DNA of 64,000 bases from Geodermatophilus sp. TF02-6 (lineage in GTDB: Bacteria; Actinomycetota; Actinomycetes; Mycobacteriales; Geodermatophilaceae), in contig NZ_QOHF01000015.1 in assembly GCF_003319115.1 (NCBI RefSeq), positions 62,001-126,000 of the forward strand, written 5' to 3'. The position numbers were made by a program, and so were the translations under genes. Under the pieces are notes generated by a model. The model was not told the DNA's origin, made no database searches, and was given only the letters and a program-made list of their open reading frames with translations. This document shows, in pieces, positions 22,410 to 23,986 of this stretch; the stretch's first letter is position 1; the number at the start of each line of letters is the position of its first letter.

Positions 22410-23747
22410 TCAGGCGAGCGCTCGCAGTCGTTCACTGAGGTCGCTCGGTGGCACGAAGACGAAGGCCTTGCTCTCTCTGCGCTTCTCGAGCAGGCCACGG
22501 TCGAAGAGATCGAGAAGGTCCGTCCGAGCTGTCTGATAGACGACGTTGTGGGACCGCCGGTGCCCCTCGATGGTGTAGTGCGCGTGGGGGTCCCGAAGTG
22601 CATCGCCGAGAAGTGCGCGCTGCCGGTGGTTCAGGCCACTGTCACCCCGGACCAGGGCTTCGACCTCCTGCACCTCGCGGATCTTGCGCTCCAGGTAGTC
22701 CTGGAGGTCACAAAGGGCACGCCTGAGGACCTCAAGGTGGTACCGGATGAAGTACGTCAGGTCGTTGTCGTCCGTCTCCGTCAGCAGGAAGCTCTGTGCA
22801 TAGGTCGTGGGTGCCTTGCGCAGGATGGTGCTGATGGTGAGGAACTCGGCTAGCCAGTACCCCTGGCGCAGCATCGACCAGTAGAAGATGGCACGTGCCG
22901 TCCTGCCGTTCCCATCCTCGAAGTAGTGATCGTATCCGAGCCAGAAGTGGAGGATGACGGACCGCACGACGGGATGGATCCAGGCGTCTTGCCCTCCTTC
23001 GTTGGCGAAGTCACAGAGGGCCCGCAACCGCTTGGGGAGTTCCTCGGCGGGCGGCGGCGTGTGCAGGAGTTGATCACCGTCGCCCCACACCTTCACTTGC
23101 TCCTCGTTCGGGTGCTGTAGGCGCCCCGCCGCGGTCGGATTGTCCAGAGTCCCGTCCGTGACCAGGCGATGAACCTCGAACACGAACTTCGGCGTGAGTG
23201 GTTGATCACGATGAGCCGTGACGTACTGCATGGCCCGGAAGTTGTTGACGATCATCTGCTCACTGCGATCACGGGGTTGCCGTCCCGTGCGGAGCATCTC
23301 CTTCGCCACTCTCCGGCTCGTGGAGGCACCCTCCAGTTGAGACGAGGTGATGGCCTCCTCCATGAGGCTCGTGATGACGTACCGGTCGCGCGTCGCGGGG
23401 TTGGTCACGCTGTCTGCAATCCCGATGCGCCCGCTCGCCTCTTGGTCGATCTTGTGCAGTGACTCGAGGGTGATGTCCGGGAGTGTGAACCAGAATGCCG
23501 AGCCCTCGGTGTCGAGGAGCGGGACGGACCGGCGGCCGGCCCCGCGGGTCAGCTTGAGCCGGAGCCACCACTCGCGGTGCGTCAAGCCCTCGGGGGCCGA
23601 CAGGTGCAGGAGCTTGTCCCAGTGCAGGTAACCGTCGTCTCCAGGTACGCCCGTCCCCAAGGGCTGTGAGATCACCCGGGCGATCCGCTCGGGGCGGATC
23701 TCCGCGAGTAGTTCGTCGAGGGAGGGTGGAGTCAGGGGAACGTGCAT
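22410..23747 (-). CDS. Fic-family protein with inhibitory helix and winged-helix C-terminus
   Basis: About 445 residues from the ATG at 23747 (a GTG at 23762 is also in frame). Fic enzymes transfer AMP or another nucleotide moiety to protein hydroxyls. The core motif is HYFEDGNGRTAR with the catalytic His at about 274. An N-terminal inhibitory helix TSSQLEGAS with the blocking Glu at about 139 marks a self-inhibited class II Fic. The C-terminus (GHRRSHNVVYQTARTDLLDL) resembles a winged helix. Base composition is visibly less G+C-rich than its neighbours, suggesting transfer. Two matched dyads lie just upstream. Confidence 0.92.
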   Translation of the reverse strand: MHVPLTPPSLDELLAEIRPERIARVISQPLGTGVPGDDGYLHWDKLLHLSAPEGLTHREWWLRLKLTRGAGRRSVPLLDTEGSAFWFTLPDITLESLHKIDQEASGRIGIADSVTNPATRDRYVITSLMEEAITSSQLEGASTSRRVAKEMLRTGRQPRDRSEQMIVNNFRAMQYVTAHRDQPLTPKFVFEVHRLVTDGTLDNPTAAGRLQHPNEEQVKVWGDGDQLLHTPPPAEELPKRLRALCDFANEGGQDAWIHPVVRSVILHFWLGYDHYFEDGNGRTARAIFYWSMLRQGYWLAEFLTISTILRKAPTTYAQSFLLTETDDNDLTYFIRYHLEVLRRALCDLQDYLERKIREVQEVEALVRGDSGLNHRQRALLGDALRDPHAHYTIEGHRRSHNVVYQTARTDLLDLFDRGLLEKRRESKAFVFVPPSDLSERLRALA

Positions 23748-23772
23748 CAGCTCTCTAATCACACCGGTGTCG

Positions 23773-23856
23773 TACTAATCAGATACTAACACGGGTAGTA
23801 GTTAGTAGGTCTGTCCGGGCCACCGGTGCTGCTACTAACTACCAAGGAAGTTGGTA
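23773..23856. promoter_or_regulatory. Paired TACTAAC dyads upstream of fic
   Basis: Two units of identical geometry, TACTAAC-N10-GTTAGTA at 23784-23807 and TACTAAC-N10-GTTGGTA at 23833-23856, are centred 49 bp apart. An extra TACTAAT half-site lies at 23773, 11 bp (one helical turn) from the first unit. The stretch is unusually A+T-rich for this genome. It looks like a two-site operator controlling fic; the protein that binds is not known. Confidence 0.75.
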
Positions 23857-23986
23857 GCAGATCAGTAGGACCCGGTCGCTCCTCGGGTCCCTCCAGCAGG
23901 GAGCGCGCATCGGGGCCCGCCCGCACAGAAACGGACGGCTTCGCACCCACTCGTTCGCGTCCGTGCAGTCCCGTGGAACGGCCACC

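Follow-up and report, generated by a model that had tools for sequence, protein, structure and literature searches.

The A+T-rich element upstream of fic in the window (the whole 64-kb stretch of DNA that was analysed) is most likely a pair of operators for the C-terminal winged helix of the Fic protein itself, placed around the fic promoter and giving autorepression. The sites, their geometry and their conservation among fic relatives, the covariation of their letters with Fic residues and the insertion of the gene were all established computationally.

The inserted fic gene and its upstream element

The features on which the analysis is based are as follows.

22413–23747, minus strand: fic, encoding a class II Fic enzyme of 445 aa with a winged helix at its C-terminus (Pfam Fic, model, orthologs)
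22452–22628, minus strand: C-terminal winged helix, residues 374–432 (AlphaFold model)
22533–22541, minus strand: putative specificity residues V403-Y404-Q405 at the recognition-helix start (top columns for half-site letters 2–4)
22893–22928, minus strand: Fic active-site motif HYFEDGNGRTAR, residues 274–285 (invariant residues in 39 aligned relatives)
23328–23345, minus strand: inhibitory-helix motif SSQLEG, residues 135–140 (conservation in 39 aligned relatives)
23773–23779, no strand: TACTAAT, proximal operator, outer third half-site at 11 bp
23784–23807, no strand: predicted promoter-proximal operator dyad TACTAAC-N10-GTTAGTA, 24 bp, read from the sequence
23833–23856, no strand: predicted distal operator dyad TACTAAC-N10-GTTGGTA, 24 bp, read from the sequence
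23861–23867, no strand: ATCAGTA, distal operator, outer third half-site 11 bp beyond the dyad arm

The fic gene was inserted alone between marR and groES. Among the 19 congener loci read, none contains fic and 16 contain marR; the marR–groES gap is at most 156 bp in 12 of these 16 loci, compared with 1632 bp in the window. A search of the family (112 genomes, E <= 1e-30) matched only the window's own genome. We conclude that the window fic was acquired horizontally, and the lack of both gene and operators at the same place in congeners fits the self-contained, transferable unit proposed in the preliminary description. Within the phylum, 14 of 396 genomes carry an ortholog (own genome counted). 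Searches in other phyla gave 26 of 288, 17 of 294, 6 of 398, 3 of 241 and 1 of 45, in each case with the genome at the centre of the search counted in. The named ortholog loci come from Planctomycetota, Verrucomicrobiota, Actinobacteria, Proteobacteria and others.

The orthologs align to the window protein along almost its full length, and its Pfam Fic match is clear (E 1.3e-14, 55.2 bits against a cut-off of 24). In SSQLEG, S135, S136, Q137 and E139 are invariant among the 39 aligned relatives and L138 and G140 nearly so; the string S135-S-Q-L-E139-G140 conforms to [S/T]xxxE[G/N], and we take it to be the inhibitory-helix motif of a class II Fic protein. H274, D278, G279, N280, G281, R282 and R285 of HYFEDGNGRTAR are likewise invariant in these relatives, and the motif agrees with HxFx[D/E]GN[G/K]RxxR, with Y in the position after H where P is usual. 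In the AlphaFold model (mean pLDDT 87.9), the Fic core is accompanied by a long linker helix; the winged helix at the C-terminus is formed by helices 374–385, 393–400 and 404–416, the last being the recognition helix, and strands 421–425 and 428–432. Residues 403–405 lie at the N-terminal end of this last helix, the part that commonly reads bases in winged helices. Motif conservation and model agree with the earlier proposal of a Fic protein with an inhibitory helix and a winged-helix-like C-terminus.

The two dyads described earlier, 24 bp each and spaced 49 bp apart from start to start, are borne out by the sequence, as is a further half-site one helical turn from the first dyad: TACTAAT lies exactly 11 bp before the TACTAAC at 23784. 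A mirror-image second half-site, ATCAGTA, had been missed; it is also listed as a half-site at −120. Read on the fic strand, the element is TACTGAT-N4-TACCAAC-N10-GTTAGTA-N25-TACTAAC-N10-GTTAGTA-N4-ATTAGTA, and 25 bp separate the end of its last half-site from the fic ATG at 23747. The low G+C content noted for element and gene was also confirmed (0.50 for 23748–23870 and 0.64 for fic, against 0.75 for the window).

With up to three mismatches, the dyad pattern has four strand-matches at two places in the 64-kb window, where 0.12 are expected. In the whole 4.73-Mb genome, the window's two dyads are the sole matches with at most one mismatch, so that no further targets were found at this level, and the next-best match has two mismatches. 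At up to three mismatches, the pattern gave 8 + 6 matches in this genome and a reversed-pattern control gave 16 + 16; because the control exceeds the pattern, the weaker genomic sites are attributable to chance.

Two other repeats are present in this region. The 8-bp palindrome CACCGGTG occurs at 23762–23769 and 23821–23828, 59 bp apart and interleaved with the dyads, and has four copies in the 64-kb window. It may be due to chance. The inverted repeat GGACCCG-N9-CGGGTCC at 23868–23890, between the operators and the groES end, is perhaps the groES terminator.

Dyad conservation and covariation with the recognition helix

Conservation upstream of orthologous fic genes, the check named in the preliminary description, was examined in 138 distinct fic loci, window included (150 loci minus 7 duplicates and 5 without a start). 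A dyad was recognized upstream of 116 of 136 usable genes (the other 20 had none by our rule), compared with 23 of 135 downstream regions and 32 of 138 gene interiors; since this rule prefers an A-rich inner half, it is not fully blind. A sequence-free score (a 7-mer pair in inverted orientation at 23 or 24 bp, with a third 7-mer 11 bp away; maximum 14) reached at least 12 in 52 of 81 upstream regions, compared with 1 of 79 downstream regions, none of 80 gene interiors and 3 of 405 shuffles. In most relatives, from many phyla, fic is therefore preceded by dyads of this geometry, and the earlier proposal passed the check.

The earlier expectation of conserved TACTAAC dyads with a 10-bp spacer holds for the geometry and, as described below, for protein–DNA covariation, but not for the TACTAAC string: half-site letters vary among loci (TACTAAT, TATCAAT, TGCTAAT and others) and are consistent inside one locus. 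The usual dyad is also shorter, being 23 bp in 100 of 117 confident dyads compared with 24 bp in the window. Two loci with S403-Y404-D405 (L076 and L147) share the dyad TACTTGT-N9-ACAAGTA, in which the 23-bp geometry is kept and the AAT inner half is broken.

Two operators 30–60 bp apart were found in 60 of the 98 loci with a usable call, and the commonest spacing was 47–49 bp (27 of 60). Third half-sites were present on the outer side in 37 of the 60 two-operator loci for the distal-type operator and in 33 for the proximal-type operator, compared with 1 and 10 of the 60 on the inner side. In 15 of the 60, a TTGACA-like −35 sequence (at least five of six letters) begins 0–8 bp after operator 1, and in these same loci the −10 sequence overlaps the first half-site of operator 2. 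The window matches its relatives in the outer half-sites and the operator spacing but is without such a −35; no sigma-70-like −35/−10 was found in the window at the position seen in relatives.

For 98 loci, we then calculated mutual information between the half-site letters and the protein, taken over its full length as 364 variable columns. These loci represent 98 of 137 half-site calls, the other 39 having been left out either for a short protein or under a rule that looked at DNA only (confidence, A at position 6 and A or G at position 5); some retained automatic calls look wrong (e.g. AACAAAA in L009) and count as noise. For letter 2, the top column of all 364 was residue 404 (z 20.3); for letters 3 (z 21.0) and 4 (z 18.7) it was residue 405, and residue 403 came second for letter 4. 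Loci with Q405 have C3 in 68 of 68 cases and T4 in 63 of 68; A405 is accompanied by T3-C4 (11/11), D405 by C3-C4 (4/4) and N405 by C4 (5/5). At letter 2, Y404 goes with A in 69 of 73 loci and R404 with G in 4 of 4, and H404 has no single partner (G 4, C 3, T 1).

The column ranking was unchanged with 81 strict calls, and residues 404 and 405 still ranked first in 45 loci with <60% identity over residues 1–364. In a tree built from only the Fic part, the half-site class changed repeatedly (TATC 6, TGCT 6 and TACC 5 times), and in independent tree pairs the residue either agreed with the letters or was unchanged, with no pair in the opposite direction. Strongly supported pairs (6 to 8 per test) showed four to five changes the same way and none opposite, numbers too small for significance. 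Since the half-site letters covary with Fic residues 403–405 at the recognition helix, the Fic protein very probably binds these operators through its own winged helix, as had been suggested for its own dyads.

On the sequences compared, this code is good inside the orthologous group and partial beyond it. Among the 39 left-out loci, the prediction agrees with TATCAAT in L146 (AYA) and GGCTAAT in L120 (VRQ), and TATTAAT in L056 (TYA) goes against it; several Q/E405 loci (e.g. L002, L058, L088 and L130) have no dyad under the strict frame rule. A held-out test by a pre-written rule yielded only L151 and L152 from two further phyla, and because the upstream region of L151 looks identical to that of L004, L151 is not independent. 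Together with L151 and L152, distant relatives of about 28–40% identity from viral contigs and plasmids made up a set of 25 loci. N405 occurs in 13 of these records. The best dyad has C4 in seven of them (L154, L155, L162, L164, L166, L235 and L236, among which L164 and L236 look alike), the letter depends on a 24- versus 22-bp frame in L158, L163 and L167, no dyad was found in L156 and L165, and nothing usable in L169. The Y404–A2 rule fails in several distant relatives, several distant loci are without a clear dyad, and the TC predicted for L168 (SEA) is absent.

Mode of regulation and relation to known Fic proteins

The closest precedent is CccR of Yersinia pseudotuberculosis (PDB 7XUX), described in the available text of PMC9755527 as a class II Fic protein with a C-terminal HTH that represses its own promoter via inverted repeats. 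Both domains of the window model align to it (Z 27.8, rmsd 5.8, 327 aligned). The two have in common the class II Fic enzyme, the C-terminal HTH and inverted repeats at their own promoter. They differ in that CccR protects AGATAATCAT-N26-ATGATAATCT, whereas the window group has 7-bp half-sites with 9–10 bp spacing; third half-sites and a second operator also set the window group apart from CccR as described there. In addition, CccR is presented as a secreted effector, and nothing in the window points to secretion.

Given this precedent and the layout in relatives, where the operators abut the −35 and cover the −10, autorepression by Fic dimers is the best reading. Dimers would bind the inverted half-sites, and extra subunits may occupy the outer half-site one helical turn off; the outer half-sites suggest cooperative loading of additional subunits. 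With both operators filled, RNA polymerase would be kept out and fic expression held at a low level. Because residues 403–405 are predicted to read the outer half of every half-site, each fic gene would carry an operator matched to its own protein. Release might be triggered, as a guess, by a shift in the nucleotide or AMPylation state.

A wider form of this model would make the group a portable family of one-gene toxins, in which a multimer on three-half-site operators both represses the gene and keeps the enzyme inactive or in a deAMPylating state, the DNA serving as antitoxin, and in which co-divergence of helix and operator prevents cross-regulation. We regard it as unlikely, if conceivable.

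The available text of PMC10628234 reports that Coxiella burnetii CbFic2 binds DNA and is regulated by it in assays with random DNA. CbFic2 and the window protein are both class II Fic proteins with a winged HTH (8cil; Z 27.4, rmsd 11.0, 337 aligned over both domains). The stimulation of AMPylation and dimerisation of CbFic2 by DNA in that report raises the alternative that operator-bound Fic activates transcription or senses the DNA state, the DNA being mainly an allosteric switch on the AMPylation enzyme. We consider it distinctly improbable, since overlap of operator 2 with the −10 in 15 of 60 loci is a repressor layout and CccR is a repressor in PMC9755527. By analogy with CbFic2, the operator may also act on the enzyme.

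Control by another host regulator, such as the neighbouring MarR or a silencer drawn to A+T-rich DNA, has in its favour the marR gene beside fic and the A+T-rich element in a G+C-rich genome. It would leave unexplained that the element accompanies fic into unrelated neighbourhoods, that the recognition helix of Fic, and not the host alone, covaries with the letters of the element, and that congeners retain marR without fic; we judge it very improbable. A DNA or RNA hairpin (insertion scar, mobile-element end or attenuator) in place of protein sites is hardly credible, because neither directly repeated third half-sites nor covariation with protein residues is expected of it, even though fic is an insertion and the 40-nt arms at 23769–23808 and 23832–23871 are 73% complementary.

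The window model also aligns to SO_4266/SoFic of Shewanella oneidensis (3eqx) over residues 78–443 (Z 28.0, rmsd 4.3, 312 aligned), with a Fic core plus winged helix in common. For the SoFic anti-phage defence family, the PADLOC SoFic profile matches residues 97–431 (E 1.7e-37), which denotes similarity only, and the NCBIfam SoFic equivalog scores 31.7 bits against a cut-off of 550. Phd-Doc and other autoregulated toxin-antitoxin modules combine a Fic-fold toxin with autoregulation through palindromic operators, and in the Phd-Doc type the antitoxin is the DNA binder. By comparison, the window Fic unites enzyme, inhibitory motif and DNA-binding domain in one polypeptide. The SoFic paper, in its available text, places a small antitoxin gene downstream (PMC12249575), and the available text of PMC2686095 mentions Phd and proposed in 2009 that HTH-Fic fusions control fic expression.

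Gene neighbourhoods and significance

Among the relatives, the upstream neighbour encodes UvrA in 9 of 73 cases and the downstream neighbour endonuclease V in 8 and HSDR_N in 3 of 75. In divergent uvrA–fic loci, the operators lie between both genes and might affect both. Of three relatives, one has fic flanked by BREX brxC and a gene for an N6-adenine methylase (L061:1–7305), one has it between hsdS and hsdR (L022:80–5583) and one before hsdR (L025:3001–7325). The presence of a few relatives among type I restriction or BREX genes is no more than suggestive of a phage-defence role. A restriction or defence partner as the main explanation was rejected: hsdS/hsdR or BREX genes stand beside few relatives, and no neighbour is general.

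Autorepression by a Fic-HTH protein is already known, with CccR as the precedent in the available text of PMC9755527. The discussion of CbFic2 in PMC10628234, as far as its available text goes, treats specific sites for HTH-Fic proteins in general as an open question. In the open literature searched, we found no earlier description of the paired three-half-site operator, its spread or a recognition code; as far as searched, therefore, this operator, its spread and the readable code are new. From sequence alone, the place and build of the operator and a residue-to-letter reading can be obtained for a broad, horizontally moving group of proteins. These yield direct predictions for binding assays and natural candidates for orthogonal repressor–operator pairs, and they provide a way to spot self-regulated Fic genes in other genomes.
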